A program made the position numbers and the translations under genes. From assembly GCA_013327885.1 (NCBI GenBank), contig JABUMY010000022.1, positions 1-64,000 of the forward strand: a DNA stretch of 64,000 nt. The letters run 5' to 3'. The DNA is from Flavisolibacter longurius. GTDB taxonomy: Bacteria; Bacteroidota; Bacteroidia; Chitinophagales; Chitinophagaceae. Positions 9,290-33,147 of this stretch are shown here, piece by piece. The notes below the pieces were generated by a model. That model saw only the letters and a list, made by a program, of their open reading frames with translations, did not search any database and was not told the DNA's origin. Position 1 is the first letter of the stretch, and the number at the start of each line of letters is the position of its first letter.

Positions 9290-12200
9290 ATGAAAAAACT
9301 TTTACTCACTGCCATCGCTGTATACTGTGCGTTAGTTTCCTTTGCACAGGTTCCCATTTTATATTATGACTTTGAACCCAATGCTTCCCGAAGCAGTAGT
9401 GGTGAGGTTACGCCGGAATTTGGTGTGAACAACGGGAACAGCAACTTCTTACAAAAAGACCTGGCCGGATTTGGTTATACAAACGGCGCTGGCGCTTTAT
9501 ATGGTGGCAATGCCGGTCGAGCGGTTACGGCAGAGGGCTGGCCAGTTCTGAATTTTAACCCGGGTGCAAGCGCATCCCGGTATTTCCAGTTTACGGTAAA
9601 CACACAGGGTTTTAGCAGCCTTAGTTTGAGTTTTGAGCACATGCGCGGCTTCTCCGGTCCCCAGGCCATTGGTGTTACGTATAGCATTGATGGTGTAAAC
9701 TTTACTACCCTGCCTTCCAAGTCAACGGATCTTTCTTATACTTCCTATACAGAAGCCTTGCCGGCACAAGCAGAAAACAGGAGCGCAGTCACCATTCGTA
9801 TTTACGGTTATTTTTCGGTGACAACAGTGGCTAATCTTTCCATTGATAATGTGGAGATTCTTGCGTCAACGATAACGGGTGTAAAAACGATCCCTGATCT
9901 TGATCATTTTGGTTTTTGTCTTACTTCCGGTAAAACGTACACGCCGACCATTAACGCCTTAACAATTGCTGGCAGTGGCGCCATTTGTACATTGAATAGC
10001 AAATTGAAATTAGGCACAACGCTCCGGGTTACAGACAAAGCCGTTTTTAGTTGTGGAACCAATGCTTCATTTCCGGGTAATGGTGGTACGGTGCGTATAG
10101 AGGATGCATCTGTTCTTCAGGTAAACTCTTTAAGCGCACAGGGTGGACTGAAAGCGACGCTGGGCAATAACAATGTTGTTTTCACCCCCTTGGCCATTTT
10201 AGAATTTGCCGGTGACGGCGAACAATACCTGGAAGGGATGACGGTGGTAGGAAATCTTTCCATCGATAACAACAAAGGGGTAAAACTGGTAGGCGAAGTG
10301 GTGGTAAACGGTAACCTGCTGTTGAACAAAGGAACCCTGGATGCAGGTACGTACAAATTAACGGTAAGCGGCAACCTGGTTGCCGATATCGGGAAAATAA
10401 ACGCATCAAAAAATGAGATCGTACTGAATGGAACGAAGCTTCAAACCATTTCCAAAGGAACGTTTTTTGGCAACCTCAATAACCTGATGGTCAACAACGC
10501 TGCCGGTGTATCTGCCAGTACAGACCTCACCATTGCCGGGACATTGACCCTGGCCAATGGAACCTTAACGATCAACAACCACAGGCTGGTTTTAACGGGC
10601 GGATTAAACCGGTGGTCGGGGCAAGTCAATGCACTTAGCGGCACAGTTGTTTTCCAGGCTACGTATGGTCAGTCCCTGCCATCAGCTTTTTTCACCAACA
10701 GCACCATCTTTAATCTGGAAGCAAGAAACGGTTCCAACATAACCTTACAAGGGTCTCTGACCGTTACCAACAATTTGATCCTGGCATCCAGTCCGTTTTA
10801 TGTGGGTAGCAATACGTTAACGCTGCTGGGCAGCCTGGAAAGAACTACCGGGCAATTAGAACTGGCTAATGGCACCCTTGTTTTTGCCGGCACACAAACG
10901 CAAAACCTGCCGGCGGGAAGCGTGATTGGTTACAATGAGCCGGGATGCGGCACCATCAGTCGGCTGACGGTGAACAATGCAGCTGGCGTTACCATGCATT
11001 CCGGCCAGCTTATTTCCAGTGCGTTGAATTTGCAAAAAGGTCACCTGAACCTGAATGGGAACATGTTGTTTCTGAATGCGCCGGTTACAGGGACTGGTGT
11101 GTTACGGGGGTCTGCGGCTTCGGGTATAACCGTAAAAACAGGGCAGAATATCGGTACGCTGAATTTTGACCAAACAACAGACGGCACCACCAATGCCTTG
11201 TCGACAATGGATCTATTTTGGGGTACGGTTACATTGGGTTCTAAGCTAAATGTGTATACCGGTATTACCATGGAATGGGCAACGCTTGATTTGGCAGGTA
11301 AAAACCTGGTGCTTAAATCCAATGCAACCAAAACTGCCTATCTGGGCGAGGTAAAAGGAACGTTGACCGGTGAGACCAATGTGACAATAGAGCGGTTTTC
11401 CCCCGCCTGGGCAAACCGTCGCTACCGGGTGATGACAGTTCCTGTAACAGGGATAACGATCAACCAGGCCTGGCAGGAAGGAGTAAAATGGAACGGTGAG
11501 GGGTCGCCTCAATCCACAGGATTTGGTACCCTCATTACAGGGCAGTCCCAGGGCAACGCCACTAACGCTAACAAAAATGGTTTTGATTTTTGGACGGCGA
11601 TTGCCGGCGGCTCTGCATCGGTACGGCAGTACGTTGCTGGTGCCAACAGTTCACAGGCAACCTGGCAACCCGTTGCGTCAACATTGGCACCAAATGCATT
11701 CGATCAGCACCAGGCCTACTTGTTATTTATTCGTGGCGACCGTACAGTCTATGCAGGTACATCTCCCGGTGCAGCTACAGTAAGAGGTAACGGTAAGCTG
11801 AAAAAAGGCAGTTTTACCATCCCCGTTGCAGCCAAACAAACACATACATTGATCGGTAATCCTTACGCAGCACCGCTGGACTTTAAGGCTGTGTACGATG
11901 CCAATAGCAATAAAATTCAACCCTATTTCTGGATATGGCAAGCCTCCTTGGGCACCGGTACCGGTGGCTATGTACTGGTACGGCCGGTATCTCCGGGAAG
12001 TACGCTGTACGAAGCCATCCCGGGCAACGGCTCAAAATCGGCTGCCAACCGGATCATTCACTCCGGCGAAGGCATTTTTGTGGTACCAGCCGCAGGTGCC
12101 TCTGCTTCAAACTCAATAACGATTCACGAGTCGCACAAAACTACCACCACACCCACAGTGTCGGTGTTCCGGCAGGCGGGTGCCGAAGAGCCGGCAAAGG

Positions 12201-13174
12201 TTTATGTCAACATGCTGACCGGTGGCACGGAAAATACCTTGCTGGATGGCGTTATGGCACAGTACACCGATAACGGAACTAGTGGCGGTGTAGGCAAAGC
12301 ACAAAACAATACCGAAAACCTTTCTATCCTTAAAAACGGCAGTGATGTGATCATTACCTCCAATGTGGTAAGTACAACGCTGGATACCTTAAAATTACGC
12401 ATGTGGAACACGGTTAACCGGTCGTATAAACTTGAATTGCGCAGCGAAAATTTTAGCGATCTTGGCGCCATGCCCGTGTTGGTGGATAGATTCCTGAATA
12501 CAGAAACGCCGATTACGGATGGCAGCGTAGCAACTGTTTATGCTTTCACGGTTACATCGGATGCTGCTTCCAAAGACCAGCAGCGTTTTTACATTGCCTT
12601 TAAGGAAAACAAAACCTTGCCTTTGGTGATTACCAGCATAACAGCAGAAGTAAAAGCAGCCGAACAGATTGTGGTGAAATGGAGGGCTGCCGATGAATCT
12701 GGAATTCAGTCTTATCAATTGGAAAGGTCATTTGATGGGACTGCATTTCATCCGCTGGCCGCCTTGGCTGCCCGTTCCGGTGCAGGTGACCAGTCTTATG
12801 ATTTTATAGATACAGAGGCAGCTTCTTTGAATTTTTACAGGGTGAAAATGACGGGAACAAACGGCAAGGTGAAATATTCCGATATTGTAAAAGCGGTGAT
12901 TCATAAACCGGCAGAAGGGTTTACAGTCTATCCAAATCCGGTCACTGGTACATCGGTCAATCTCCGGTTTCAAAACAAGCAAAAAGGAGAATACACCTGG
13001 GTGCTTTACAACATGACAGGGCAGGTTGTTCTCTCCAGGGCTGTTCATCATACCGGGGGAAACACTACCCATAAGGTATCCTTGACAGAAGCGGTACGCC
13101 CAGGTAATTACAAACTTGAGATCAGGAACGAGAAGGGCGTTAACGAATACGTCAGCGTCAGTGTGCTGAAATAA
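9290..13174 (+). CDS. Giant T9SS-secreted surface protein A
   Basis: A 1294-residue secreted protein. Residues 1-20 are a signal peptide (ALVSFAQ end). Residues about 21-190 look like a beta-sandwich ending in SIDNVEIL. Residues about 200-690 are beta-solenoid-like, with repeated strands of the type GNLLLNKGTLDAGTYKLTVSG. From residue 698 (VTIERF) begins the constant tail shared with three genes downstream: RRYRVMTVPV, INQAWQEG, FGTLITGQ, GFDFWTAIAGG, LLFIRGDR, HTLIGNPYAAPLDF, SGEGIFVVPAAG. An FN3-like segment (about 1110-1205) follows, then a type A sorting domain (VYPNPVTG near 1212). The sorting domain implies export by T9SS and anchoring at or release from the cell surface. Biochemical function unknown; adhesion or matrix roles are guesses. 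A promoter (9198) and a terminator (13203) make it its own transcription unit. Confidence 0.85.
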   Translation: MKKLLLTAIAVYCALVSFAQVPILYYDFEPNASRSSSGEVTPEFGVNNGNSNFLQKDLAGFGYTNGAGALYGGNAGRAVTAEGWPVLNFNPGASASRYFQFTVNTQGFSSLSLSFEHMRGFSGPQAIGVTYSIDGVNFTTLPSKSTDLSYTSYTEALPAQAENRSAVTIRIYGYFSVTTVANLSIDNVEILASTITGVKTIPDLDHFGFCLTSGKTYTPTINALTIAGSGAICTLNSKLKLGTTLRVTDKAVFSCGTNASFPGNGGTVRIEDASVLQVNSLSAQGGLKATLGNNNVVFTPLAILEFAGDGEQYLEGMTVVGNLSIDNNKGVKLVGEVVVNGNLLLNKGTLDAGTYKLTVSGNLVADIGKINASKNEIVLNGTKLQTISKGTFFGNLNNLMVNNAAGVSASTDLTIAGTLTLANGTLTINNHRLVLTGGLNRWSGQVNALSGTVVFQATYGQSLPSAFFTNSTIFNLEARNGSNITLQGSLTVTNNLILASSPFYVGSNTLTLLGSLERTTGQLELANGTLVFAGTQTQNLPAGSVIGYNEPGCGTISRLTVNNAAGVTMHSGQLISSALNLQKGHLNLNGNMLFLNAPVTGTGVLRGSAASGITVKTGQNIGTLNFDQTTDGTTNALSTMDLFWGTVTLGSKLNVYTGITMEWATLDLAGKNLVLKSNATKTAYLGEVKGTLTGETNVTIERFSPAWANRRYRVMTVPVTGITINQAWQEGVKWNGEGSPQSTGFGTLITGQSQGNATNANKNGFDFWTAIAGGSASVRQYVAGANSSQATWQPVASTLAPNAFDQHQAYLLFIRGDRTVYAGTSPGAATVRGNGKLKKGSFTIPVAAKQTHTLIGNPYAAPLDFKAVYDANSNKIQPYFWIWQASLGTGTGGYVLVRPVSPGSTLYEAIPGNGSKSAANRIIHSGEGIFVVPAAGASASNSITIHESHKTTTTPTVSVFRQAGAEEPAKVYVNMLTGGTENTLLDGVMAQYTDNGTSGGVGKAQNNTENLSILKNGSDVIITSNVVSTTLDTLKLRMWNTVNRSYKLELRSENFSDLGAMPVLVDRFLNTETPITDGSVATVYAFTVTSDAASKDQQRFYIAFKENKTLPLVITSITAEVKAAEQIVVKWRAADESGIQSYQLERSFDGTAFHPLAALAARSGAGDQSYDFIDTEAASLNFYRVKMTGTNGKVKYSDIVKAVIHKPAEGFTVYPNPVTGTSVNLRFQNKQKGEYTWVLYNMTGQVVLSRAVHHTGGNTTHKVSLTEAVRPGNYKLEIRNEKGVNEYVSVSVLK

Positions 13175-13202
13175 AGTAAGTTCTCCCTAAGAAGAAGAGC
13201 AT

Positions 13203-13245
13203 AAAAGGAGCCGAAGGCAATTGATCGCGGCTCCTTTTATTTTTA
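13203..13245 (+). terminator. Rho-independent terminator after T9SS gene A
   Basis: An 11-bp perfect stem (AAAAGGAGCCG at 13203-13213, CGGCTCCTTTT at 13228-13238) with a 14-nt loop is followed by ATTTTTAG. It lies 28 bp after the stop codon. The A-rich left arm could also end a minus-strand transcript. Confidence 0.85.
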
Positions 13246-13254
13246 GCGACAGGC

Positions 13255-13286
13255 TTTGCAAACCGGTCATATTTCTGCTATATTTG
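13255..13286 (+). promoter_or_regulatory. Near-consensus Bacteroidota promoter
   Basis: TTTG at 13255-13258 and TATATTTG at 13279-13286 match both the -33 and -7 elements exactly, with a 20-bp spacer. Transcription would start near 13291-13293, only about 12 nt before the ATG at 13304 of the small PID-CTERM-like gene. Confidence 0.7.
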
Positions 13287-13303
13287 AACACAAATCTCCG
13301 GGA

Positions 13304-13570
13304 ATGAGGCAAGGGAAGAAATATCGTATGTTGTTTGGTTTCGGCCTGGCAATAATGCTGTGTAGCGTGCAAGCGGTACAGGCACAGGATGATCCCCCAC
13401 CGCCATCTACCTGTCTTCCCGGAGACCCTGATTACGATCCCCGCTTATGTGTGCCAATTGATGGCGGACTGGCTTTTTTATTGATGGCAGGTGTAGGTTA
13501 TGGTGTCTTAAAAAACCGGTCCACTAACCGCAAAGAACAAAACGAGCCCTCCACGCCAACCGATATATGA
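13304..13570 (+). CDS. Small secreted protein with PID-CTERM-like tail
   Basis: An 88-residue protein. MRQGKKYR is a basic leader before the hydrophobic segment LFGFGLAIMLCSVQAVQAQ, a signal peptide. The short mature part is proline-rich (DDPPPPS) with two cysteines. It ends in VPIDGGLAFLLMAGVGYGVL followed by KNR and a charged tail. This P-I-D-G-G-L motif, transmembrane stretch and basic end resembles what is annotated as a PID-CTERM sorting domain in Bacteroidota; that match is from memory. Such tails are thought to be cleaved or retained by a sorting enzyme in the inner membrane. No candidate sorting enzyme is in the window. An ATG at 13328 is an alternative start. The gene has its own promoter and sits between two giant T9SS genes. 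Confidence 0.65.
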   Translation: MRQGKKYRMLFGFGLAIMLCSVQAVQAQDDPPPPSTCLPGDPDYDPRLCVPIDGGLAFLLMAGVGYGVLKNRSTNRKEQNEPSTPTDI

Positions 13571-14007: not shown

Positions 14008-17000
14008 ATGAAACTGCCTGCTTATCCACTTCTACTAATTGTAGCCTGTGCTGCAATGCCATCGGTTTCAACATCAGCCCAACAAAACATCACTGTTCTC
14101 AACACACCAGTCATACAGGACTTCAATGCATTGCCGGCAACCGGGAATGCTCTATTCGCTACCGGTGGGATATTTGCAGAGGGATGGTCTTTCCTGGAAA
14201 ACGGAACCAATAAAAATGACCTTTACCAGGCAGGATCAGGTACTTCCGCCACCGGTGATACCTATAGTTTTGGTGCTTCGGGAATGACAGACAGGGGTTT
14301 TGGTTTCCTGCAATCGGGCAGCCTGGGTTCAATTCCGGGGTATAAATTTCAGAACAATACCGGGCAGGTGATTTCGTCGATGGTGGTAGGGTATACCGGT
14401 GAACTATGGCGACTGAGTGCGGCTCCGGACGGGTTGACCTTTTCTTATCAAGTAGGCGATGTTGCTTTGGACGAGGCACTGGGTTGGAGAACCGTGACGG
14501 CGCTGAATTTTATCACGCCGGTTACCGGCACCGGCGCTGTGGATGGAAACAGTGGTGTCAACCGCATAGTGCTAAACCCGGTTTTGATCACAGGCCTTTC
14601 ATTACCGCCGGGTGCCGTGGTCACGTTTCGTTGGGTGGATGCCACCCTGTCCAACTCTGCTGCCATGGCTATCGATGATTTTAGCCTGGTCTTGATACCT
14701 GCTTTTACCGGGTATTTTAGAAGCCGCGGCAACGGCAGCTGGAATGAGCCGGCTACTTGGGAAAACAGCCTGGATGGCAACACCTGGACTGCTGCCAGTA
14801 ATGTAGTTCCATGCAGTGAGGCCGCAGGCACAACCCTGCTGACAGGGCATGCTGTATCTGTAACAGATGACCTGGTCGCAGCAAAAATCACTGTGCAACC
14901 GGGTGGTAAGCTGGCTTGGACAGGCGGGAAGTTTTCACTCGAAGACACACCGGGCGACGACCTGGTTCTACAGGGAACGGGCAGCGAATGGGAGATGGCA
15001 GCGAACGTTATACCCGTTTTGGCGGGAACTGCTTCTGTCCGCGTAGGGTCGGGTGCCATTTTAAAATTGGCAGGCAATAACAACCTGCTGGCTTTTCACG
15101 GTAATCCCTACACGTATGCGGATAAAGCAATTTTTGAGTACAGTCACACAACCGCTCCAATTATCGCCGGCCCTTTTTTTAGTTCCCAGGAAAATGGCGC
15201 CATACCTGTTTTTCGTTACAATTCACCGCTTACAACCGCAATTGGCAACAGCAGCGCCACAACCATCAACGGAAGTGTGGAGGTGGCTGCCGGACGGACC
15301 TTTAACCTGAATGGTGTCAGTGGGCCACTCATTATCCGCAATGGAATCGCGGGAGATGGCAATTTGAGTTCGGGAGCAGTCATTCAGCTAACAGGCAGTA
15401 CGGCCATACTGGGCGGAGCAGGCACGCTAAATTCAAATCTTTCTATACTGCAGGGCTGCACCACAACCTTAATATCCAATAGAGTGGTATCCAATAACAG
15501 GACATTGTCTGTAAGTGGAATTTTGGATGCGGGTACACGGCAACTGCGCACATCATCAGGTACAGCGACGTTGAATATAAATAGTACGGGTACGGTCAGG
15601 ACGGCAAATGCAGCAGGGTTGATTGCCGAAACGGGCTCCTTAAAAACAGGAAATTTTTCGCTAAGTCTTGCGCCGGGTTCCACGGTCGAATACAATGCAC
15701 CGGGAAACCAGGACCTGACGGTTACAAATATACCGGCTTATCAAAACCTGGTTATCTCCGGTACAGGAATAAAAACGGCACAAAGCGGTGGTAACCTAAT
15801 TGTGCAAGGGGCCTGCAGGATCGAATCCGGCGCCACCTTCGCCCTTTCCGGCAATGCAGCGGAAAACCTCTACCTGAACAACAATGCTTTGCTACAGGTA
15901 TTGCCCGGTGGCACCTTCGACAACGGTGGTGAAAGCAGTATCACATCTTCCAGCGGCACACCTTCCATTAGCATCGCTGGTACATTTATAACAAGAGACA
16001 GGCAGGGATTTATTGGCACCGGCGCCGCCATTCCAACCATTAACCCACAACTCCTGGCCGGTTCGTTGATAGACTTCGGCTGTGCCGGCGACCAATCCAT
16101 CCAGGCTACGCTGACCTACGAAAATCTTTCCTGCAGTGGGACAGGCATCAAAACACCATCCAATGCAATAGCGGTCAACGGCACAATTTACACAAGTGGT
16201 GCTGCGGTGCTAGATGGTACGTCTCATACCATCGGTGGAACAACCACCAACCTGGTTATGAAACAGAGCAGCCGGCTGATAGTTGGAAGCACCGGTACCC
16301 AGCCTGCGATGGGTGGCATGTATACCTTGTCACCAGGAACAGCGATCGAATTTGCCAATAACAACCTTACCACCGCCACCATGCGACAGGGAAACCCTGT
16401 GATTCAATATGCAAATGTTGAAATAGCCGGCAACAATGTAACCGCACCCTTGTCAGGCATCACCCTGCAAGCCGGTGCTACCCTGCAAGTAAAAAGCGGT
16501 GGGACCCTGAAATTGTCATCGGTAAATGGTTTGTATGCAACCGCAAACGCGGCTGTGCTGAGTCTAAATAACCCGGCTATAGACCTGCAGCCCGGTTCAA
16601 CGGTGGAATATAACGGGGCGGCACAAACGATTACTACAGCCTTTCCCTATAGCAGCCTCACGATCGCCGGTTCAGGTAACAAAACGGCGCTTGCCGCACC
16701 AATAATCAATCAACGGTGCACCCGAAGCGGCACTGCAGAATGGGCAGGGGCCAGTCCGGTCTATGCAGCAGGAGCTTCATTGGTTTACGCAGATGGCGAG
16801 GCAAGCAGAACCTATACACCAGGTTTGGAATGGCCGGTAGCATCGCCACCCCAAAATATCACGGTGAATTTAACGGGCACGGGTTCACCTTTAGTAAGGC
16901 TGGCAACGAACCGGCAGGTTGCAGGAAATCTTACCCTGGCAGCCGGTGCACTAAGTCTCGAAGGTTTTCACCTGGAGGTGACGGGCAGCATTATGGGCAA

Positions 17001-19077: not shown

Positions 19078-19778
19078 CTTATCGGAATTAAAAGTGAACA
19101 CGGCAAGGGCTACAATACAGCGCTTTCCGTATACCTGTTATGGCTGAATCAGTTCCTTTCATTTTAGCAAAGTGCAATTTCTTCCGTCTTTGTGAGGCAA
19201 CCACATGCGATGGACAAGGCTATGCCCTTTATTTGATTGACAATGTCTTGTGAATGAGCCTTTTTGAATCTATTTGGAAAAACACATCTTTCTTCCCACG
19301 AAAGGGACAAATAATCTGGCGACGGCAATGCATAAACGCAAATTTTACCCCATCTTTTCATACGCGTAAGGGCGTGCGTGCATCACAAGTGGAAAAACTT
19401 TTGGTACGTATCAGCGATTTTCCTACTTTAAAGATTATCTTGCGCCCAAATCCAAACCTGTCAAACTGCTGCTTTCCAATCCCTCTGATCATTAACCCCC
19501 TTTCCAATTTTCTTTTAAAGCCCTTCTGAAAACTGTCACTTTTCCGCAAGCTTACGCAAGCCTGGAGGTAATGGTTTTATCCCTTTCCTGGAAAAGCTTT
19601 TTATGAAATGACACTTTAGGTGTTAAATACAAAACATGAAAAGGGGCAAAATTAATAACGGAAGTATCCATAGGTTAATTAGACCAGAATATAAATGGAC
19701 TTGCTTTTCACAAAGTGCAGCAAATTCAGCTGTGCATACTTATCCTGCCAATTTTTCCCAACCATTAACCAGCGCTTT
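19078..19778 (+). other. Intergenic region before T9SS gene C
   Basis: No gene is supported here. A plus-strand frame of 91 codons (19254-19529) lacks family resemblance and overlaps another frame in antisense. I see no clear terminator after gene B and no exact Bacteroidota promoter. The coding frame of gene C is open from 19695, but the signal peptide sets the start at 19779. Confidence 0.5.
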
Positions 19779-22700: not shown

Positions 22701-25700
22701 TATTACGCTGTAGTAACGAATACGGGAACAGGATGTAATGCAGCAACATCTGCTACTGCCTCTGTTTCGGTAGATGCCCAACCTGTGTCCGGTACGATAG
22801 CAAAAAGTGCAAGTGTAAACACAACATCGGTTTGCAGTGGTAGTAGCGTTTCGGCTACCGCTACAGCCGGTACAGGGACTGGAACGGATTTGTTGGAATA
22901 CAGCTTTGATGACAGCGGTATCTGGTCAACCTACACAGCAGGCGCAAATCTCTCTACAGCCGGGCATACAAAAGTTGAAATCCGCACATACAGAAGCGCT
23001 GCTGGTACAAACTGTACATCCTCCACACCAGTATCAGTTAGTTGGGTGGTGAATGCGCGGCCGACAGTTAGCATTGGAAAAAGTGAAACTTCGGGAACAA
23101 CGAACAATGATGGCATTATCTGTACAGGAAGTTCAGTTACGCTGACGGGCAATGGCAGCGGCACGCTGGCCCCCTATTCGTATTCCTGGGTAACCGGTGC
23201 AACTACAATTGCTTCCACTCAATCGGTGCCTGTTTCGCCAACATCAAACACAGACTACCTGGTAACAGTCACTGACGGCAATGGCTGTACCAATACCGAA
23301 ACCTTTACCGTTGAGGTCAACTCCCTGCCCACACCCGGCATCGCGGTAGCCGAAACTTCCGGCACCACCAACAATGATGGAACCATCTGCACCAGCGATG
23401 CTGCAACGCTGACTGCCAGCGGTGGTACTTCCTATGCCTGGAACACGGGTGCCACGGGCGCTGTTCTCAGCAACCTGACGCCTGGGGCAACCACTTCCTA
23501 CACCGTCACTGTAACAAACGTCAATGGCTGTTCGGCCACCGCCAGCAAAACAATAACCGTAAACCCATTGCCAATAGTAACATTTATTGTAGCCCCTGGA
23601 ACATCCACTTGTATTGGCACCAGTGTTACCTATACCACGCAGGCAGGCCAATCCAATTATAATTGGATCTTACCTACTCCGGCATCTGCCTATACCATAA
23701 CGGGTGGTGGTTTAAACACCAACTCTATAACAGTACAGTGGAATACGGTAAACAACAAAATGGTAATAGTTGGGTATAAAAATAGTGATGGCTGTACAGC
23801 GACAAGTTCAGGCGCAACTGTGCTTGTAAATCCATTGCCAACAATTTCAACAAGCGGTGCAATGACGCCTCTTTGTGAGAGTACAGCAGGACAAACAACG
23901 ACGCTTTCTTATACCGCAACAAGTAACAGTCCAACTTCCTACAGCATCGACTGGAATGCCGCAGCGAACAGTGCGGGCCTTACTGATCAGGGAAGCACAA
24001 ACTTTTCCTTCGCAGGGGGAGGAGGCAACATCAACACCATCTTAGTTTCGGCCAATACGCAACCCGGTTCCTATGCGGGTATAATGACCATCACCAATGC
24101 AAATGGCTGTACGGCAACACAAGCCGTTTCGCTGGTGGTAACTCCAACGAATACCGTGGGTGCGGCTTCAGCAACGCCGACACTTTGTATCAGCACAGCC
24201 TTAACACCAATAACACATAGCACCACTGGTGCTACAGGCATTGGCACGCCTGCTGGCCTGCCAGCGGGTGTTACTGCAGGTTTTGCTTCAAATACCATCA
24301 CAATCTTGGGTACGCCTACTGTAAACGGCACATTTAACTATTCAATTCCGCTAACTGGCGGTTGCGGCTTGATCAGTGCTACCGGAACTATTACTGTTAC
24401 ATCCGCATCAATAGGTGGAACCATTGCACAACCCGTTACAACAGTATGTGCAAATGCAGCGGGTGGAACGCTGACCTTAAGTGGGCATAATGGCTCAATT
24501 GTAAGGTGGGAATCTTCTACCAATGGCGGAACATCATGGACACAGATAGCAAATACGACAACTTCCCAAACCTATTCAACAACGGTAACAACATTGTACC
24601 GGGTCTTCATCCAAAATGGAGTTTGCAGTGGCGTGTATTCAAGCAATGCTGTTGTCAGTGTAATTCCTACTTACACACCAACGGCTACAGCTACCCCTGC
24701 GGCTATTTGTGTTGGTCAATCTGCGATGCTTTCAGCAACGGCAGGTTTTACCACGGGTTGGGGAAATATTGATGGTACCTTTAACCAGGCGAATCCTGAC
24801 GGTTGGCAGGTTACAGAAAATGGTTCGCATATAAATTTTCCTGCGAACGCAAACAATGCAGTGACTAACCCTTGGAGTGAATCTAACGGTCCAAAAACTC
24901 TGAATGGGGTCATCTATAACAACCTTCAAACCAATGGTAAATTCGCCGTTGCCTCTGGTGTTGTTTCAACTTTTTTAGAAACACCGGTCTTTAACACGAT
25001 TGGAATGGGTTCTGCTTTGTTGCAGTTTTATCAGGCCTATAATTTTAATGCGGGAACAATTGGAAAAATTGAAATTTCAACAAACGGAGGGGCGTCCTAT
25101 AATCATACATTAATTACATACAATGGTGCACAAAATCCAAATTTGGGAAATCCAACTAATAGTTGGGTGTTAACAAACTTGGATTTATCAAGTTATTTAG
25201 GACTGACGAATTTGCGGATACGCTTTAATTTTCAGGGAGTGAATGGGCCCACGATAAGTAATTGGGCAATAGACGGAATGACCCTTCCAGGATCACTTCC
25301 CACGATCACATACGCATGGATGCCCACAACAGGGTTGACACCAACAGCAGGTCAGACTGTGACGGCTTCTCCCACAACAACGACAACATATACATTAACA
25401 ACTACAGTTGGTGGTTGTCCGGGTGGAAGCAATCCGGTAACTGTCACGGTGAACCCCTTGCCAACGGCTACCGTCGCGGTGAATGCAACGGCAGCTTGCC
25501 AGAATGGTAGCTCCAACGCTGTTACCTTTACCGGTGCAGATGGCACAGCACCATATACCTTTACCTATAATGTCAACAATGGTGCAAACCAAACGGTAAC
25601 TACAACAAGTGGAAACAGTATAACCATCCAACATCCCACAGGAACGGCAGGTGCCTTTACATACAACCTTGTCAGCGTAAGGGATGGTTCCTCAACGCAA

Positions 25701-28421
25701 TGTGCACAACCGCAAACGGGCACGGTCACTATCAATGTTTACAGGCCAGTCCTCATCGCCAATACAGCTCCCCTGCCTCCGCAGTGCTGGGGCAGCAAGG
25801 TCACACTTACCTTTATGGCAACCGGCGACATAACAGGATACCAGTGGTATAAAAATAACCAGCCCATAATCGGCGCCACCTCCAATTCCTATGTCATCAA
25901 TGCAATGGCTCCCGCTGATGCAGGGGACTATTACCTGCTAATAAAGGGTACATCACCCTGCCTTGACGCAACCTCAGGCACCATCAACCTCACAACCTAT
26001 GCTACAGATATGACGGTGTGGACATCCGGAGCAAATACGGACGAATGGCATGATGACTTGAACTGGACTTGTAAGATACCCAATTTGTACAGGGATGCAT
26101 TGGTACCTGTTGTTCCAAACAACAAATATCCTCATATCGATGGTACTTCTGGATTGGTAGGACAAACAAGAAACCTGACAATTGACGCCAATACGTCGGT
26201 AACACTGGATGGCCTTTTGCAGATGGCCGGAACCGTTACCAACAACGGAATATTAGACGCCTACCTGAATGGACCAGCCAGCAAAGGCATGCTGGAATTT
26301 GTTTCCAACATTAATTTTAGCGCCTATCCAAACAATACCCTGGATCCAAAATCACTGACAGGTACGGGTGCAACAGAGACGCAGCACCTGAAGATCAGCA
26401 ATACGGTCACCTTTGCCAAACTGGTTGATGTTTACGGGCAGTTATCCTTCGGCGGCAGCAACAAATCACTGGCCACCGGCGACAAGCTTACATTGAAATC
26501 CGTGTCCTCTACCGTTAGTGCCATGGTCATGGACAGAACGAACGGCATTGGTGTTGAACAAAACAATACCATCAGCGGGCAGGTTACGGTAGAGCGGTTT
26601 ATCGATGGCGCCCTTGGACGAAAATGGCGCCTGGTGACCGCCCCGGTGAAAGGTATCAATATCAACCAGGCCTGGCAAGAGGGCATGACCAGTAACAATG
26701 GCGCACATAAATTGACAATTTCTGGCACCGCAGTCACACCAATACCGAAATACGGGACGCTGATCACCGGTGGTGGGCTGGCAGACCAGACGCCAAGGTT
26801 CACCACCGCGGCGGCCGCCAATGCAGCCGGCTTTGATTTCTGGGACGCCATTGCTTTAGCCCAGTCTTCTCTTCGGTATTATGCCGGCAATGCCGATTGG
26901 ACCGCTGCCATTTGGCAACCGGTAGCTTCTACCATTGCAAATAATTTTAATGCAAACCAGGCCTACCTCCTATTTGTCAGGGGCGACCGTTCCATTACCT
27001 CCGCCAGCGGCGGCACCACCTTGCGGCCAAAAGGATTGCTGAAAGAAGAGTTCAGCCACGACGTGCCCGTAAATGCCGGGAATTCTCATACCCTTGTAGG
27101 CAACCCTTATGCAGCGCCATTGGATTTCCACAAGATGTACAGCGATGCCAAACTGGGAAATAAAACGACGATCCAGCCTTACTTCTGGATTTGGCAGGCT
27201 TCACTCACCGCTTCTTTTGGCGGCTATGCCATCATAAGGCCACAATCGCCTGGAGACGATAACTACGAAATGGTGCCGGATGCCAGTATGACGGGAGGAC
27301 CTCCCGTACCACCGGTTATCAGTTCCGGGCAGGGATTTTTTGTGGTTCCCCTTCCGAACGTTACCAATCCAAAGATCACCATCAACCAAACCCACAAGGC
27401 CCTCGCCAACTCTACAGTGTCCGTATTCCGGCAATTGGGTGAAAAGCCGAAAAAGCTGTTTGTCAATGTGTATGCCCCGGCAAGGGGCGGCAGAGAAGAC
27501 ATCCTGCTTGATGGCGTACTAGCGGAATTTAGTCCCGGCAGCAAGCCACAGGGGTTGACAAAAGCCCTCCAGGCAGGGGAGAACCTTTCCGTGCAGCTGA
27601 AGGGGAGCGATTATATCGTATCCACAACCGATTTGCCGCGTATGGGCGACACGGTTCACCTGCGGTTATGGAACACGGCCCCGGGAGCCTATAAACTGCG
27701 GGTTCGCAGCGCCAATTTTACAGCGCCGGGACTGGCAGCGATCCTGGTCGACAAATTCCTGCAGAAGGAAACCCCGCTAAGCCTGGGTGATGCCTTTACG
27801 GAGTACAGTTTCAACCGGAGCGGCCAGGCTGCCTCCGGCGATGAGAAGCGCTTCGTCATCGTCTTCCGGTCGGCACCGTTACCGGTGGTTACCCTGGAAG
27901 CAGCAGAAAAACGGGCCGGCGTTCAGTTGCAGTGGCAGGTGCCGGAAGAAGTGAATGTGGCCCGCTATGAACTGGAAAGGTCCACCGATGGAACAACCTT
28001 TGCAACCATCAGCACCACGCTTTCACAGGCAAGTGCTGCGCCAAAGCAATACACCCATTTCGATAAGGAGCCATTCATGCAGGTGCACTACCGCGTAAAA
28101 CTGACCGGTGTCTCCGGGGCGACAGTTTATTCCAATACGGTTACGGTTAACCTGGTGCAGCCATCCGGTTTCACGGTTTATCCCAACCCGGTACTTGGCC
28201 GAACAGCCAATCTCCGGTTTACCACAAAACCCGAAGGACGGTACAACCTGCAGCTATTTGCACCCGGGGGCCAACAGGTGGCGAGCCAGGTGATTCAGCA
28301 CATGGGCGGAACCGCAACCTACGAATTGCAGGTAGGCAACCTGGCAAGCGGTACCTACACGGCTGAAATTCACCACCCGGGTGGCTGGAAAGAAAAAATA
28401 AAACTGGTGATCACGCATTAA
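19779..28421 (+). CDS. Giant T9SS-secreted surface protein C with Ig-like repeats
   Basis: A 2880-residue secreted protein, the largest in the window. MKTILPRGNFQIVLFTVFCL begins a signal peptide ending in AIGQ. Residues about 45-265 are glycine-rich (GGGGAGG, ATGGGGGGGAF). About 270-2080 is a string of Ig-like or PKD-like domains with the signatures SGSSVTLTG, TYTVTVTNVNGC and TITVNPLP. Two of these blocks are near-identical DNA duplicates (21123-21662 and 23040-23579). At residues 1656-1839 a jelly-roll-like domain (WAIDGMTLPG end) is inserted within one Ig-like domain. About 2085-2268 has the NWTCKIP beta-solenoid segment. The constant tail starts at 2269 (VTVERF), followed by FN3-like (about 2701) and sorting (VYPNPVLG, about 2800) domains. 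Likely a long stalk-like adhesin, but the function is inferred from architecture only. Confidence 0.85.
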   Translation: MKTILPRGNFQIVLFTVFCLLGVNVAIGQTSLTFTSSNPFTVPAGVTTINVQAWGGGGAGGRANTNGNNFATGGGGGGGAFARKILTVTPNTVYNVTVASAKISSTISNASIDNNGNPSVFSLGGTELVKAMGGTGGTGFTANGGGNGAGGNGSVAGSIGDVGFIFNGGNGGTGNNSISGAGGGGAGSTGVGGNANAGVAGVGRTIGGGDGASGVAVEDAVGNTGSTFGGGGSGARVKGNQNKAGGTGAAGQIIVYYYYLNSAVTSSSICNGNPATISISSNAIPTSLPNGTFTISYSLSGANSGTGTANMTISNGSGAGTFNTIPLANAGSTTLTITNISNGTISMAPSGSTTATITTSTQPASGTLTKTPNTTSVCSGSSVSATATAGTGGTGTVADVLEYRYDGGSWQSYTSGTILSTAGHTSVDIRTYRTASGTGCTQSIPNMASWVVNARPTVSIGKSETSGTTNNDGIICTGSSVTLTGNGSGTLAPYSYSWVTGATTIASTQSVPVSPTSNTDYLVTVTDGNGCTNTETFTVEVNSLPTPGIAVAETSGTTNNDGTICTSDAATLTASGGTSYAWNTGATGAVLSNLTPGATTSYTVTVTNVNGCSATASKTITVNPLPIVPIITGTSSVCIGGTTTLMNSVSGSWTSLNTSIATIDNNSGEVTGVAPGSTTIQFAVTDNNGCTNNRTTTVTVNALPTLTSVSSSTIALCSGTGATITLNGLLPNTTQTIDYTIPGEGTLTTTVTSNGSGVASFTTIGLNASNSGAQLTITGITRNDVTPSCSILPSNAGTTLPTVTPIDLVAPVIDKPAGIDVATLCAGQTLTVDITTPGSGGTTNPQDEYRYSTDGGANWSAWSTTVPSFAAVTGTNSIQARRTAADGTCTASGTNSKSWVVTAQPSAGSLSPAVQDACLNTVAQILTVNPSGGSGNFSYQWYANTTNSNTGGNLINGETNSTYTPPTVSVGTIYYYAVVTNTGTGCNAATSATASVSVDAQPVSGTIAKSASVNTTSVCSGSSVSATATAGTGTGTDLLEYSFDDSGIWSTYTAGANLSTAGHTKVEIRTYRSAAGTNCTSSTPVSVSWVVNARPTVSIGKSETSGTTNNDGIICTGSSVTLTGNGSGTLAPYSYSWVTGATTIASTQSVPVSPTSNTDYLVTVTDGNGCTNTETFTVEVNSLPTPGIAVAETSGTTNNDGTICTSDAATLTASGGTSYAWNTGATGAVLSNLTPGATTSYTVTVTNVNGCSATASKTITVNPLPIVTFIVAPGTSTCIGTSVTYTTQAGQSNYNWILPTPASAYTITGGGLNTNSITVQWNTVNNKMVIVGYKNSDGCTATSSGATVLVNPLPTISTSGAMTPLCESTAGQTTTLSYTATSNSPTSYSIDWNAAANSAGLTDQGSTNFSFAGGGGNINTILVSANTQPGSYAGIMTITNANGCTATQAVSLVVTPTNTVGAASATPTLCISTALTPITHSTTGATGIGTPAGLPAGVTAGFASNTITILGTPTVNGTFNYSIPLTGGCGLISATGTITVTSASIGGTIAQPVTTVCANAAGGTLTLSGHNGSIVRWESSTNGGTSWTQIANTTTSQTYSTTVTTLYRVFIQNGVCSGVYSSNAVVSVIPTYTPTATATPAAICVGQSAMLSATAGFTTGWGNIDGTFNQANPDGWQVTENGSHINFPANANNAVTNPWSESNGPKTLNGVIYNNLQTNGKFAVASGVVSTFLETPVFNTIGMGSALLQFYQAYNFNAGTIGKIEISTNGGASYNHTLITYNGAQNPNLGNPTNSWVLTNLDLSSYLGLTNLRIRFNFQGVNGPTISNWAIDGMTLPGSLPTITYAWMPTTGLTPTAGQTVTASPTTTTTYTLTTTVGGCPGGSNPVTVTVNPLPTATVAVNATAACQNGSSNAVTFTGADGTAPYTFTYNVNNGANQTVTTTSGNSITIQHPTGTAGAFTYNLVSVRDGSSTQCAQPQTGTVTINVYRPVLIANTAPLPPQCWGSKVTLTFMATGDITGYQWYKNNQPIIGATSNSYVINAMAPADAGDYYLLIKGTSPCLDATSGTINLTTYATDMTVWTSGANTDEWHDDLNWTCKIPNLYRDALVPVVPNNKYPHIDGTSGLVGQTRNLTIDANTSVTLDGLLQMAGTVTNNGILDAYLNGPASKGMLEFVSNINFSAYPNNTLDPKSLTGTGATETQHLKISNTVTFAKLVDVYGQLSFGGSNKSLATGDKLTLKSVSSTVSAMVMDRTNGIGVEQNNTISGQVTVERFIDGALGRKWRLVTAPVKGININQAWQEGMTSNNGAHKLTISGTAVTPIPKYGTLITGGGLADQTPRFTTAAAANAAGFDFWDAIALAQSSLRYYAGNADWTAAIWQPVASTIANNFNANQAYLLFVRGDRSITSASGGTTLRPKGLLKEEFSHDVPVNAGNSHTLVGNPYAAPLDFHKMYSDAKLGNKTTIQPYFWIWQASLTASFGGYAIIRPQSPGDDNYEMVPDASMTGGPPVPPVISSGQGFFVVPLPNVTNPKITINQTHKALANSTVSVFRQLGEKPKKLFVNVYAPARGGREDILLDGVLAEFSPGSKPQGLTKALQAGENLSVQLKGSDYIVSTTDLPRMGDTVHLRLWNTAPGAYKLRVRSANFTAPGLAAILVDKFLQKETPLSLGDAFTEYSFNRSGQAASGDEKRFVIVFRSAPLPVVTLEAAEKRAGVQLQWQVPEEVNVARYELERSTDGTTFATISTTLSQASAAPKQYTHFDKEPFMQVHYRVKLTGVSGATVYSNTVTVNLVQPSGFTVYPNPVLGRTANLRFTTKPEGRYNLQLFAPGGQQVASQVIQHMGGTATYELQVGNLASGTYTAEIHHPGGWKEKIKLVITH
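21123..21662 (+). repeat. 540-bp direct repeat, copy 1 (within T9SS gene C)
   Basis: Identical to 23040-23579 except at three positions (21149 G/A, 21539 A/G, 21569 A/G), spaced 1917 bp apart and in frame (639 codons). It encodes two consecutive Ig-like domains. A shorter exact 60-bp repeat (20894-20953 and 22817-22876) precedes each copy, and the sequence between the 60-bp and 540-bp blocks has diverged. This shows a larger ancestral duplication, partly kept uniform afterwards. Confidence 0.95.
23040..23579 (+). repeat. 540-bp direct repeat, copy 2 (within T9SS gene C)
   Basis: Second copy of the repeat at 21123-21662 (537 of 540 positions identical by base-by-base reading). Recombination between the copies would remove or add exactly 1917 bp and keep the reading frame. 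Confidence 0.95.
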
Positions 28422-28440
28422 AGCAAACAATACCAACTGC

Positions 28441-28495: not shown

Positions 28496-29067
28496 AACAC
28501 GGACGATGGACCTTAAAGGAACATAGCGATATGCCTATACGCTAAGCATCAATTCAAAAAAAGAGGCCCATTTCATTTGTCTGGACAGCTATTGTAGGGA
28601 CATGCTCCTGGCATGTCCTATAGTAATAAAAATAACCTATCACGATAACGAACCTGCGAATACCTGATGAAAATTAATCACTTCAATCTGAAAATAACAG
28701 GGCAGTAGAAGATGCAAAACCGGTTAACAAGGGTTTCAAAATCTTGCCAATCGTAAAAAGGCACAACCATCGATTTTAAATTTCAACCGGGCTTTACCGC
28801 TCAACTAAGGGTTTTCACCGAAAAGGACCTAGGGGTACTTGCAAGGAAAAATAATCGGCTTTATCTTGCCCCCGAATTCAATCCTGCGGATAACCATACA
28901 CAATATTCCTTCGAATGACGCCATATCCACCTTCCTGTAAAAAGCCTTACCGGAAACGACTACCTTGCAATTCAATTTCATTGTTTTGTGTAGGGAGCAA
29001 GTTTCACTGATCTCCTGCGGACAACCAATCATTAGATGACTGCACCACCAGTGCCAAATTCTACCTT
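28496..29067 (+). other. Intergenic region before T9SS gene D
   Basis: No gene is supported in these 572 bp. The only structure is a perfect 8-bp hairpin (GGACATGC at 28598-28605, GCATGTCC at 28611-28618). It lacks a T-run and looks like a dispersed palindromic repeat. TTGTTTTG at 28981-28988 is one base from the -7 consensus, but no -33 element is at the right distance. Confidence 0.45.
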
Positions 29068-32000
29068 ATGAAGCAGCGTTATTCTGTTGTCCAAAACTTA
29101 GGCAGGCTCATTTTTTCAGGCAATTACGTATCGTCGGGTAAAGGTAGCAAACAGGTTGTAGCCCTAGCCATCACTATATTCTGTATGCTGCAGGGCACTC
29201 TGGCCCAAAATGCAACAGTCACCTGGCCGTTGACAGCCAATGCGAATGCAACAGTTCCGGCTGGATTGACAGCCGCAATGACAAAAGGGAATGGGTTGAC
29301 AAATGGTGGATATGGAACGAATGGCTATACGATAAAGGATGCCATTACAAATTCTTTGAACAATGCAAAAACAGCAAACGATTATATTCAGTTTTCCGTA
29401 ACAGTAAACGCCACCAATACATTTTCAATTTCTGGTCTGGTCCTCAAAACCCTTGTCCCAGCAAACCAGGCCAATGCCCGTTTCCAGGTACAGTATTCTT
29501 TTTCCAGCAATTTTGCCGCACCGGCCAATATCGGTACGGAGACCACGCCGGCAGCAGCCATAACAACTACCACCTTTAATCCGTCAAACCTTCAGGTACC
29601 CGCAGGAAGTACCATCTATATACGCATCTTTACTTGGGGGCTTTCTGCAACAAACACCGATTTTACAATCAAGGATGTTCAGGTACTGGGCAGCGTTTGT
29701 CCTTCAGTAGCCATTACCTACCCGGCACCTGGTGCCTATTGTAAAACCCCCGGCGCAACGGCAATGCCTACCCGCACCGGCCCTACAGGTGGTGTGTACA
29801 CAGCACCAGCAGGCCTGGTGATCAACAGTTCAACCGGTGTGATCGACGTAGCAGCAAGCGTCGCCGGTACCTATACCGTTTCCTATACGGTCGCGGGTGG
29901 TTCCGGTTGTGGCAACCTGGTGGCAACAAAATCGGTGGTGATCAATAACCTGCCCACGGCCTTTACCCTCACAGGACCCGACGGTGCCACCGGCTCATTT
30001 TGCACCAACGGTACCCCGGCAACCTTCACCCTGAGTGGGTCAGAGGAAGGCGTGACCTACACTTTCACAGCCATTAACCCCGGCGGCAATACCCCTCCCG
30101 GGCAAAACTTTTCAGTGGAAGGCGTAGGGGGTACACTTGAATTTGTACAAACACCCGATGGCAAATGGAGTTACAAAGTAATTGGCGAGGACACCGAAAC
30201 CGGCTGTTCCAATACCATGGAAGGTCTGCTCACCGCCGTCGACGGCCCAAAGGTCACCAGCCAGCCCGAACCAATAAAAACCGTTTGTTCCGGGTCTACG
30301 GTTGCCTTGACCGTTGCAGTGAGCAATGCCAATTCCCTTGCCTGGGAAGTGAGCCCCAATGGCGTTACCGGGTGGACGCCGCTCAATGCTGGTGGACAGT
30401 ATGCCATCACCAAAAACGGGAACAACTCCACTACCTTAACCATCAGCAATGTAACGGTGGGTCTCAATGGCTACCGCTACCGTACGGTGTTCGGCGGCCC
30501 TGCTGCCTGCCCCATCAACTACAGTAACGGTACCACCCTGAGTGTATCCGCCATTCCCGAAGTGACGGCCCAACCGGTTTCCAAAGCGGTATGTCTGAAC
30601 AGCACCTTCCAGGTTTCAGTAGCTGCCTTGCACGCTACTTCCTACCAGTGGTATAAAAACGGAACCTTGCTCACAGGCGAAACAGCACCAACACTGACCC
30701 GCAACTTCACATCAACCGCTGATGCAGGCGCTTATTATGTAATGATCTATGGTACTTGTGGTTCCAAACGCTCAAACGACGCTAACATTTCCGCCAATAC
30801 CAACCCGGCATCGACCACCTGGCTCGGACCCACGGCGTCAACAACGCCGGCCAACGGTACCGCTTGGGAATTTGCACCCAACTGGACCTGCGGCGTACCC
30901 ACGCGAACAAAAGACGCCATCATCCCGGCCGATGTATTGGACGGCTACCCAACCATCAAGGCCACCATCACTGGCGAAGTGCGTAACCTCACAATTCAAT
31001 CCGGTGTGTTTGGCGGCTTCCTGAACGTGGAAGGAAAATTACAATTGTTCGGTACCGTTACCAACACCGGTGTTTTCGAAGCAGGCAACGGAACCATCGA
31101 ATACAGCGGCACCACCGTACAATCAATCAGCGCCAACACCTTTGCCAACAACACCGTGAAAAACCTGGTCATCAGTAACAACGTAACGCTCAACGGACCG
31201 CTCGACCTTACAGGCACCCTTTCCTTTGGAGCAGTGAACAGCAAAACATTTACCACCAACGATCACCTGGCCCTGAAATCATCAGCAGCCGCCACGGCAA
31301 GAGTAGCCGATATCACCAACAACGGTGTCAACGCAGGAAATAGCATTACTGGCAATGTATCCGTAGAGCGCTTTATCCCTGCCCATAGCAGCCGTCGCTG
31401 GCGCCTGGTCACCGCACCGGTAAAAGGCGTGAGCATCAACAAGGCCTGGCAGGAAGGCCGCACCTGGAACGGCAGCGGGGCATCAGAAGCGCAGGGTTAC
31501 GGAACCCTCATTACCGGCCAGGCCCAGGGTACCCCTGAAAAGGCCAACGCAGCCGGCTTCGATTTCTGGACGGCGATAGCAGGCGGTGGCGCATCGGTCC
31601 GCAAATACGTAGGTTCATCCTCTGCGTCCAGCAACATTGATGCGGCATTTTTTCCAATCGACAATACAACAACAGCCAGCTTCACAAGCCACGAGGCCTA
31701 CCTCTTGTTTGTACGGGGCGACCGTACCATCTCTTCCGGGTCGGCTGTAGGCAGCGCCACGTTGCGGGCCAAAGGACCGCTGAAGCAGGAAACAACGTAT
31801 ACCATCCCGGTTGCCACAACACAAAGCCACACCCTTATCGGGAACCCTTACGCATCGCCCATCAACTTCCGGAAGCTCTATACCGACAACAGCTCCAAGA
31901 TCCAGCCTTATTATTGGACATGGCAGGCTGGCCTGGGCTCCGGCGTGGGCGGTTATGTGCTGATGTTTCCCAATGGCGAAGGTGGATGGGAGCCCGTTCC

Positions 32001-33147
32001 CGCCACGAGTGGCGCCGGAACAACCGAGCCGGTAATTGCTTCCGGTGAAGGCTTTTTTGTGGTGCCGGCAGCAGGGGCCACAACCGGCAACACCATACAA
32101 TTGAAAGAAGTTCACAAAGACGGCAACAAGCCCTCGATTTCAACTTTCCGGCAAGCCGATGCCGCACCGGCCAAGGTCCGTATCAACCTCTTTACTTCTA
32201 TCAACGGTCAGCAAGTGCTGCTCGATGGCGTTCAGGCCCGGTTCAGCGAGTCTGAAAAGACCGCCATGCAAAAAGCGGTCAACGGCGGTGAGAACCTGTC
32301 GATATACAAAAACAGCAAGGACCTGATCGTTGCGGGTGACGCACTTCCCGCGGCGGGCGATTCCATTCAGCTCCGTTTCTGGAACCTGGCGGTTCGAAAA
32401 TACACACTGGAACTGGCAGGCAATCGTTTTCCTGCCGGCACAGCTGCTGTTCTGTACGACCGCCACCTGGCAAAAGAAACACCCATACAGTTGGCTGCCG
32501 AAGGACTGGTATACGAATTCGCCGTGACCGCTGACGCCGGCAGCAAGGCCGCCCAGCGCTTTGTGATCCGCTTTCAAAAGGCGCAGGTCCTCCCGGTGAC
32601 CCTCCTTTCATTCACCGCGAAAGAAGAAAGCAACAGCACGGTAGGCATCGAATGGAAAGTGACGGGTGAGAACAATATCAAAGACTACACGGTAGAACAC
32701 AGCACCGATGGAAGCATCTACAAACCCCTGCAAACCGTGCTGCCAACTGGCCAGGCAACAGATCAGGTTTACGGTACGACGCATGGCCAACCCGCATCGG
32801 TCAACCACTACCGTCTGAAAATAACCGAAGCAACAGGCTCGATTCGCTATTCCGGTGTGGCTACGGTACGACTGGATCTGAAAGAAGGCGCAACAACGGT
32901 TTACCCCAATCCGGTACGCGGCAGCAAAGCCTTTATTAAATTGAGCAACAAGCCGGCCGGCAACTACAGCCTGGCGATCTATAACCCGGCCGGTCAGCAG
33001 GTGCTGGCAACGGTGCTGGTGCACGGCGGCGGAACAGCAGCCCTGTCCCTGCCCCTCAACAGCAACTGGGCAGAAGGCATCTATACGGTTAGGCTGACCA
33101 ACAGCAAGGGTGGGGTAGAAACAATCTCCCTTCACTTGGCAAAATAG
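29068..33147 (+). CDS. Giant T9SS-secreted surface protein D
   Basis: A 1359-residue secreted protein. A long basic N-terminal region precedes the hydrophobic signal core, which ends near GTLAQ (residue 47). Residues about 48-212 are a beta-sandwich ending in TIKDVQVLGS. About 213-580 holds three or four Ig-like domains (for example TYTVSYTVAGGSGCG and YQWYKNGTLLTGE). About 585-763 has the NWTCGVPTRTKDAIIP beta-solenoid segment, similar to gene C. The constant tail starts at 764 (VSVERF): RRWRLVTAPVKG, INKAWQEGRTWNGSG, GYGTLITGQAQG, LLFVRGDR, HTLIGNPYASPINF, SGEGFFVVPAAG. FN3-like (about 1175) and sorting (VYPNPVRG, about 1278) domains follow. It is the last of the four tail-sharing genes. 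Function unknown. Confidence 0.85.
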   Translation: MKQRYSVVQNLGRLIFSGNYVSSGKGSKQVVALAITIFCMLQGTLAQNATVTWPLTANANATVPAGLTAAMTKGNGLTNGGYGTNGYTIKDAITNSLNNAKTANDYIQFSVTVNATNTFSISGLVLKTLVPANQANARFQVQYSFSSNFAAPANIGTETTPAAAITTTTFNPSNLQVPAGSTIYIRIFTWGLSATNTDFTIKDVQVLGSVCPSVAITYPAPGAYCKTPGATAMPTRTGPTGGVYTAPAGLVINSSTGVIDVAASVAGTYTVSYTVAGGSGCGNLVATKSVVINNLPTAFTLTGPDGATGSFCTNGTPATFTLSGSEEGVTYTFTAINPGGNTPPGQNFSVEGVGGTLEFVQTPDGKWSYKVIGEDTETGCSNTMEGLLTAVDGPKVTSQPEPIKTVCSGSTVALTVAVSNANSLAWEVSPNGVTGWTPLNAGGQYAITKNGNNSTTLTISNVTVGLNGYRYRTVFGGPAACPINYSNGTTLSVSAIPEVTAQPVSKAVCLNSTFQVSVAALHATSYQWYKNGTLLTGETAPTLTRNFTSTADAGAYYVMIYGTCGSKRSNDANISANTNPASTTWLGPTASTTPANGTAWEFAPNWTCGVPTRTKDAIIPADVLDGYPTIKATITGEVRNLTIQSGVFGGFLNVEGKLQLFGTVTNTGVFEAGNGTIEYSGTTVQSISANTFANNTVKNLVISNNVTLNGPLDLTGTLSFGAVNSKTFTTNDHLALKSSAAATARVADITNNGVNAGNSITGNVSVERFIPAHSSRRWRLVTAPVKGVSINKAWQEGRTWNGSGASEAQGYGTLITGQAQGTPEKANAAGFDFWTAIAGGGASVRKYVGSSSASSNIDAAFFPIDNTTTASFTSHEAYLLFVRGDRTISSGSAVGSATLRAKGPLKQETTYTIPVATTQSHTLIGNPYASPINFRKLYTDNSSKIQPYYWTWQAGLGSGVGGYVLMFPNGEGGWEPVPATSGAGTTEPVIASGEGFFVVPAAGATTGNTIQLKEVHKDGNKPSISTFRQADAAPAKVRINLFTSINGQQVLLDGVQARFSESEKTAMQKAVNGGENLSIYKNSKDLIVAGDALPAAGDSIQLRFWNLAVRKYTLELAGNRFPAGTAAVLYDRHLAKETPIQLAAEGLVYEFAVTADAGSKAAQRFVIRFQKAQVLPVTLLSFTAKEESNSTVGIEWKVTGENNIKDYTVEHSTDGSIYKPLQTVLPTGQATDQVYGTTHGQPASVNHYRLKITEATGSIRYSGVATVRLDLKEGATTVYPNPVRGSKAFIKLSNKPAGNYSLAIYNPAGQQVLATVLVHGGGTAALSLPLNSNWAEGIYTVRLTNSKGGVETISLHLAK

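Follow-up and report, generated by a model that had tools for sequence, protein, structure and literature searches.

Four giant type IX secretion system proteins with a common tail module, and the pairing of module genes with PID-CTERM genes in Bacteroidota

The first 64,000 nucleotides of contig JABUMY010000022.1 (assembly GCA_013327885.1), analysed here as a whole and called the window, contain an array of four genes for giant proteins of the type IX secretion system (T9SS) kind. The proteins have different N-terminal parts (heads) and end in one common tail, at the start of which lies a conserved segment called the module. The gap between genes 1 and 2, 833 bp long, houses an open reading frame (ORF) of 88 residues that encodes a small PID-CTERM protein and was left unremarked in the first-pass annotation. 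The source genome measures 5.75 Mb in 52 contigs; it was compared with the genomes of Flavisolibacter longurius and Flavisolibacter nicotianae, which are its closest relatives with a name and are treated as sister species. The features are listed in Table 1.

All four ORFs are present as annotated, the length of 2880 residues for gene 3 holding from Met29. The motifs assigned to the tails are found in the claimed order in each of them, and the tails align over their full length, with a pairwise identity of 40.7-43.2% over 667-676 aligned positions in all six pairs (counted with the 90 residues upstream of the V-T-[VI]-E-R-F motif included). A chance likeness is excluded by the BLAST E-values of tail against tail, 1e-173 to 6e-144. 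The V-T-[VI]-E-R-F motif, VSVERF in gene 4, begins 597, 598, 612 and 596 residues from the C-termini of genes 1 to 4, and clear homology starts about 26-33 residues ahead of it, at the stretch LKS..TA.V. From there to the HK...FRQ stretch extends the module core of ~300 residues; compared with the core of gene 1, those of genes 2-4 show 48-53% identity.

The type A sorting domain, previously attributed to all four proteins, is clear in genes 1 and 4, where it exceeds both the Pfam and the TIGR04183 cut-offs, and weak in the other two. Gene 2 reaches 14.7 bits with Pfam (cut-off 27) and 17.0 with TIGR04183 (cut-off 23); gene 3 reaches 21.7 bits with Pfam in one scan and 29.7, over the cut-off, in another, and is not listed for TIGR04183. 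SprA, a component of the T9SS translocon, is encoded in the source genome (SprA_N, 520.9 bits). The description of the array as surface proteins of T9SS type that share a tail and adjoin a polysaccharide export locus is supported, and the shared tail is proposed to be a T9SS display tail.

PID-CTERM is a curated sorting signal. The protein from the window matches its model, NF046080, with 30.2 bits (cut-off 26), and orthologues scoring 29.7 and 39.0 bits occupy the same gene 1/2 gap in F. longurius and F. nicotianae. When 15 flanking stretches in the three species were inspected, a PID-CTERM gene was present only in these three gaps. The synteny of the island is conserved in all three species: the order of the four array genes is unchanged in F. 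longurius, and in F. nicotianae, genes 1 and 2 are neighbours and genes 3 and 4 lie at other places in the contigs.

Table 1. Features of the array and its surroundings, in window positions.
Feature	Position	Strand	Description
Array gene 1	9290..13174	+	1294 aa: signal peptide (by eye), N-terminal part with no domain assigned, solenoid-like repeats, module, FN3-like domain, type A sorting domain
Module core, gene 1	11300..12231	+	Shared module
Terminator-like hairpin	13201..13240	+	13-bp perfect hairpin, then T-rich run; between gene 1 and PID-CTERM gene; putative terminator
Promoter-like box TATATTTG	13279..13286	+	Stretch kept in the same gap of the two sister species; putative promoter
PID-CTERM small protein	13304..13570	+	88 aa: signal peptide (by eye), short Pro/Asp/Gly-rich segment, PIDGG, hydrophobic stretch, basic tail
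Array gene 2	14008..19077	+	1689 aa; sorting domain weak
Module core, gene 2	17200..18119	+	Shared module
Array gene 3	19695..28421	+	2908 aa from first ATG (2880 from Met29): Gly_rich_2, seven Ig_7 stretches, module, tail
Module core, gene 3	26481..27470	+	Shared module
Array gene 4	29068..33147	+	1359 aa: Ig_3, solenoid, module, beta domain, FN3-like domain, sorting domain (modelled from residue 588)
Module core, gene 4	31261..32200	+	Shared module; 31261-32169 modelled alone
Wza-type polysaccharide export protein	33578..34411	+	PF02563 and SLBB over cut-off
Wzc-type chain-length/tyrosine-kinase protein	34414..36867	+	AAA_31 and GNVR over cut-off; Wzz below cut-off
UpxY-family antiterminator	37487..38038	+	NF033644, 135.9 bits (cut-off 100)

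The module also occurs outside this array. A profile search detected it in 92 of 296 sampled Bacteroidota genomes, belonging to 42 of 139 genera, and the first profile found it in 11 of 57 near relatives of the source genome. With the first profile, the source genome itself yields five copies: the four of the window and a further one on contig C2. The wider profile gives six matches, five of them listed; the sixth may be the opening half of the C2 copy, which is interrupted by another domain. Scanning the GTDB species, each represented by a single genome, confirmed 88 relatives, of which 80 were kept, all with Bacteroidota titles except two titled 'uncultured bacterium'. For 69 aligned tails, chosen as complete, a sorting domain was recognized by Pfam in 64 and by the NCBI model in 62, at E up to 0.01.

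The association seen in the gene 1/2 gap recurs widely. A census covered 95 PID-CTERM genes from 62 genomes and 34 genera, no genome contributing more than two; up to 6 kb upstream was taken, and the nearest upstream same-strand ORF of 250 residues or more was scored as the neighbour. This neighbour carries a sorting domain in 61 of the 95 cases and the module in 43 with the first profile, rising to 61 after three profile iterations, and reversed decoy sequences gave 0 module matches. The module-PID pairs span 43 genomes, 20 genera and 10 families. The two genes lie close together, with a median gap of 69 bp and at most 100 bp in 53 of 60. Restricted to T9SS-sorted upstream proteins of 450 residues or more, the module is present in 56/60 (39/60 with the first profile). 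As a control, 60 T9SS proteins were drawn at random from the top 150, by score, of the 543 in ten PID-bearing genomes; only 8 carry the module (5 with the first profile). For controls without a PID gene behind them, the count is 4/56 (3/56 with the first profile), or 4/48 if only the long ones are considered. At the genome level, 92 of the 296 genomes have the module, 49 have a PID gene and 48 have both.

Exosortases accompany the PID genes. They were detected in 113 of the 296 genomes, including all 49 with a PID gene, and in 8 of 9 PID genomes of near kin that were checked apart. The source genome has two PID genes and two exosortases, and its five module genes share their contigs, C14 and C2. 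On contig C2, a PID gene (12602-12835) is followed by an exosortase (12949-13572), a 182-residue ORF and the fifth module gene (14617-18723). The second exosortase is encoded on the contig of the window, at 71390-72043 and, hence, outside the window, amid glycosyltransferase-type genes of the polysaccharide locus. F. longurius has one exosortase match, on the contig of the array and ~40 kb behind it; in F. nicotianae, an exosortase lies ~36 kb behind gene 3. Both source-genome exosortases exceed the TIGR04178 cut-off (44.1 and 35.0 bits vs. 23). Conserved Cys, Arg and His, presumably the catalytic residues, align in four exosortase sequences. With 112.3 and 83.4 bits against the XrtY model NF046083 (cut-off 160), the two source-genome proteins are nearest in sequence to XrtY, without being filed as XrtY.

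In genome G169, the module, PID and exosortase genes follow one another on the same strand, and the ORFs for PID protein and exosortase have 4 bp in common; the same order by position is seen in G003, G029 and G007 (contig C59). Two genomes also have a small ORF immediately ahead of a module gene (L265:9034-9576, 181 aa; L329:9593-10117, 175 aa), and a 132-residue ORF of G169 (L330:4505-4900) overlaps the end of the exosortase gene. None of them has a family over cut-off, and they are possible further parts of the operons.

That an exosortase-type peptide is encoded beside a particular class of giant T9SS cargo points to a joint action of the two. We propose a paired surface system, in which a T9SS-exported giant protein is matched with an exosortase-processed PID-CTERM peptide and linked to exopolysaccharide. 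The giant protein would leave the cell by the T9SS, and the peptide would be cut and transferred by the exosortase; the two would come together at the cell surface, along with the exopolysaccharide from the neighbouring locus. The module would be the constant part serving the pairing, and the heads would do the contacting. The pairing is taken from gene order and the mechanism is inferred; the reading as a whole is given a probability of about 0.5. A more specific version, a two-sortase system in which the module itself receives the exosortase-sorted peptide, or its lipid or sugar, and so ties the giant protein to exopolysaccharide, is put forward tentatively.

Several observations weigh against this paired system. 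Any contact between module and peptide is hypothetical. Nearly half of the module genomes (44/92) are without a PID gene, and a PID gene is found within 1.5 kb behind only 17 of 72 module genes; in the array, genes 2, 3 and 4 have none behind them. Conversely, 34 of the 95 PID genes are without a detected module upstream, 7 of these standing beside an exosortase and 27 with neither; some are at contig ends or have divergent upstream proteins. An exosortase occurs within 1.5 kb behind the PID gene in only 11/95, and the relative G033 (96% complete), which has both PID gene and module, shows no exosortase. Among the 57 nearest relatives, searched with the narrower profile, the association is looser: 11 have the module, 16 a PID gene and 8 both (p 8e-4). 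In the window, the hairpin and the promoter-like stretch stand between gene 1 and the PID gene, so that the two may not form one transcript; the box TATATTTG fits the Bacteroidota -7 box TAnnTTTG. The control comparison also has its limits. The 4 controls with a PID gene behind them all carry the module, yet they already belong to the 95 and, thus, provide no independent support. PID neighbours were among the sequences used to train the iterated profile, which gives them an advantage over the controls, and the first-profile contrast (39/60 vs. 3/56) is therefore cleaner. Finally, the Fisher p values for 56/60 against 4/56 (4.5e-23) and against the 48 long controls (7e-21) overstate independence, because the genomes share descent.

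The PID-CTERM proteins are almost devoid of cargo. Their median length is 69 residues, with a median of 39.5 residues ahead of the PID motif, signal peptide included, and the consensus PIDGGLgLLAAAGGAYAiKKLRdk has the form of an exosortase signal. Such a protein could also be an inner-membrane escort rather than a surface partner, keeping the giant protein export-competent in the periplasm until the exosortase releases the escort. The small size, the single hydrophobic stretch and the tight position behind the giant gene would suit a dedicated helper. Beyond signal peptide and sorting signal, however, only a few residues of low complexity are left, which is little for a chaperone, and we regard the escort as unlikely.

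The statement that the core matches no nameable domain holds: none of the four cores has a Pfam model at E up to 10, and the NCBIfam scan of the whole tails placed no match on the core. In the cores of the 69 relatives, no Pfam family is common to more than three (Kelch_1 in three, best E 0.006). The tail of gene 4, modelled from residue 588, has a predicted local distance difference test score (pLDDT) of 91.2 and a predicted template modelling score (pTM) of 0.77. In this model, strands with solenoid spacing (1-150) are followed by the core (~150-430), a beta domain (448-585), an FN3-like domain and the sorting domain, the domain names being our own reading. By sequence, the tails of the relatives have the same order, with a beta-solenoid, a domain of ~300 residues, a beta domain, an FN3-like domain and the sorting domain.

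The core modelled alone (303 residues; pLDDT 88.6, pTM 0.89) found no convincing PDB entry with Foldseek; the best of 254 matches at E up to 10 has an E-value of 0.41. It is read as an apparently unclassified fold by comparison with the PDB, and it may be known among predicted cellular structures. A Foldseek search with the whole-tail model returned mainly FN3 and other tandem beta-domain chains and is uninformative for the module. A Kelch beta-propeller was considered and rejected: the sequence profile matches Kelch chains, yet no single stretch passes alone, and there is no Kelch chain among the 50 listed of the 254 Foldseek matches, none of which is below E 0.41.

In the viral library BFVD, a single structural relative of the core falls below E 0.001 (A0A8D9C8P8; E 3.5e-7, TMq 0.51). 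This protein of 587 residues comes from an uncultured marine phage and carries the annotation 'putative hemin binding protein'. A phage origin of the module was rejected: none of nine pattern matches in viral contigs was confirmed as a relative, and a search with one core in phage records gave no relative. The module of three genomes from the genus has a CHRD domain (PF07452, over cut-off) nested between the RRAWRLL-type and WQE stretches, after which the module resumes (G000 contig C2:14617-18723, L265; L075:10001-12082; L329:10849-14613).

Solenoid-like rungs precede the module in most of the 80 relatives (by eye), and the first module strand carries on the solenoid pattern in the gene 4 model. 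The module might then be a mere structural adapter that caps a beta-solenoid at its C-terminal end and joins it to the sorting tail, and the PID genes would ride along, being co-expressed for exopolysaccharide-coated surfaces. The low share of module genes with a PID gene, 17/72, agrees with such an adapter. On the other hand, a cap need not reach ~300 residues, and shared regulation alone leaves unexplained why PID genes prefer module-bearing T9SS proteins (56/60 vs. 4/56; 39 vs. 3 with the first profile). The adapter is possible, if somewhat doubtful.

The heads were previously viewed as interchangeable, which is not supported. Genes 2-4 have heads with orthologues in F. longurius and F. nicotianae, about as conserved as the tails. 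For gene 2, the heads are 52-62% identical over their length across species and the tails 44-52%. The corresponding values for gene 4 are 52-66% and, in the main block of the tail, 54-60%; in the shorter F. nicotianae tail, the last 80-90 residues are just 28-38% identical. The gene 3 heads share 48-74% in long blocks, one copy being cut by a contig end. Each tail has its best score with the same-numbered gene of another species, and no sign of conversion was seen. Only the head of gene 1 differs between species: compared with F. longurius, 148-286 residues beside the tail match at ~35% and the remainder is mostly replaced or diverged, and compared with F. nicotianae, it is partly conserved, at 35-41%.

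Within the array, the heads have little in common. Genes 3 and 4 share 152 residues at 36% and a weak 155-residue match (E 6e-4), and genes 1 and 2 share ~100 solenoid-like residues beside the tail. Known families in the heads are limited to Gly_rich_2 and Ig-type domains, in genes 3 and 4. The largely unrelated paralogous heads, together with the divergent head of gene 1, would fit surface proteins with variable heads on a constant anchor. Such a cassette, as used in phase or antigenic variation, was rejected, since genes 2-4 show no head exchange, with gene 1 as the exception; with orthologous heads in three species, conserved about like the tails, it is highly improbable. The orthology of these heads indicates four distinct proteins of long standing rather than a cassette with exchangeable heads.

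Behind the array, the polysaccharide export genes of Table 1 are accompanied in the window by an asparagine synthase and a glycosyltransferase. ORFs of similar size and start lie behind the array in the sister species, as judged by position; the antiterminator is not listed for F. nicotianae. Two intergenic stretches (19391-19593 and 28790-28885), which lie ~100-300 bp ahead of genes 3 and 4, are 74-78% identical to the same gaps of F. longurius. The upstream stretches of the two genes also share a 26-nucleotide element with 85% identity, from its sequence a possible common upstream regulatory element. No RNA family was found in the window at gathering thresholds, and the intergenic gaps contain only short repeats, none of them convincing. 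Ahead of the array, a 146-residue ORF (8563-9003, + strand) weakly resembles the R subunit of type I restriction systems (25.3 bits vs. cut-off 550). It overlaps, on the opposite strand, the 5' part of a nucleoside-phosphorylase-type gene (7762-8808) and is partly conserved in both sister species.

The proteins of the proposed pair belong to known kinds: T9SS cargo, PID-CTERM and exosortase. Like other type A cargo (TIGR04183/PF18962), the array proteins have a signal peptide (by eye), a large repeat-rich extracellular part and a C-terminal sorting domain, over both cut-offs in genes 1 and 4; they differ by the ~300-residue module of apparently unclassified fold ahead of the FN3-like and sorting domains and, in gene 2, by a weak sorting domain. 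With PEP-CTERM/exosortase systems, the PID-CTERM proteins share a C-terminal motif followed by a hydrophobic stretch and a basic tail, and both kinds of system have an exosortase in a polysaccharide locus. Here, in contrast, the motif is PID, there is hardly any mature protein, the exosortase is nearest XrtX/XrtY and the pairing is with T9SS cargo. The small proteins match the NCBIfam PID-CTERM model (NF046080) and the exosortases TIGR04178 over the cut-offs, whereas the exosortases score below the curated XrtX and XrtY cut-offs (NF046081, NF046083). What appears to be new is the module, for which no curated family was found, and the gene pairing. Among the papers searched, none has 'PID-CTERM', none has any two of XrtX, XrtY and exosortase, and none has T9SS together with Kelch and a sorting domain; among the matches listed, no title or opening of an abstract names the pairing.

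PEP-CTERM/exosortase systems have been linked to exopolysaccharide, according to PMC10936215 and PMC7468200. In Flavobacterium johnsoniae, as reported in PMC10936215, deletion of XrtF much reduces biofilm and abolishes zorbs, as does deletion of SprA, PorV or PorU; the same paper leaves the exosortase substrates to future work. The pairing of an exosortase-type substrate with one class of T9SS cargo would name a concrete partner for the exosortase. The module, which is frequent (92/296 genomes) and confidently modelled, with no curated family found and no PDB match by Foldseek, would be useful for annotation as a new family.

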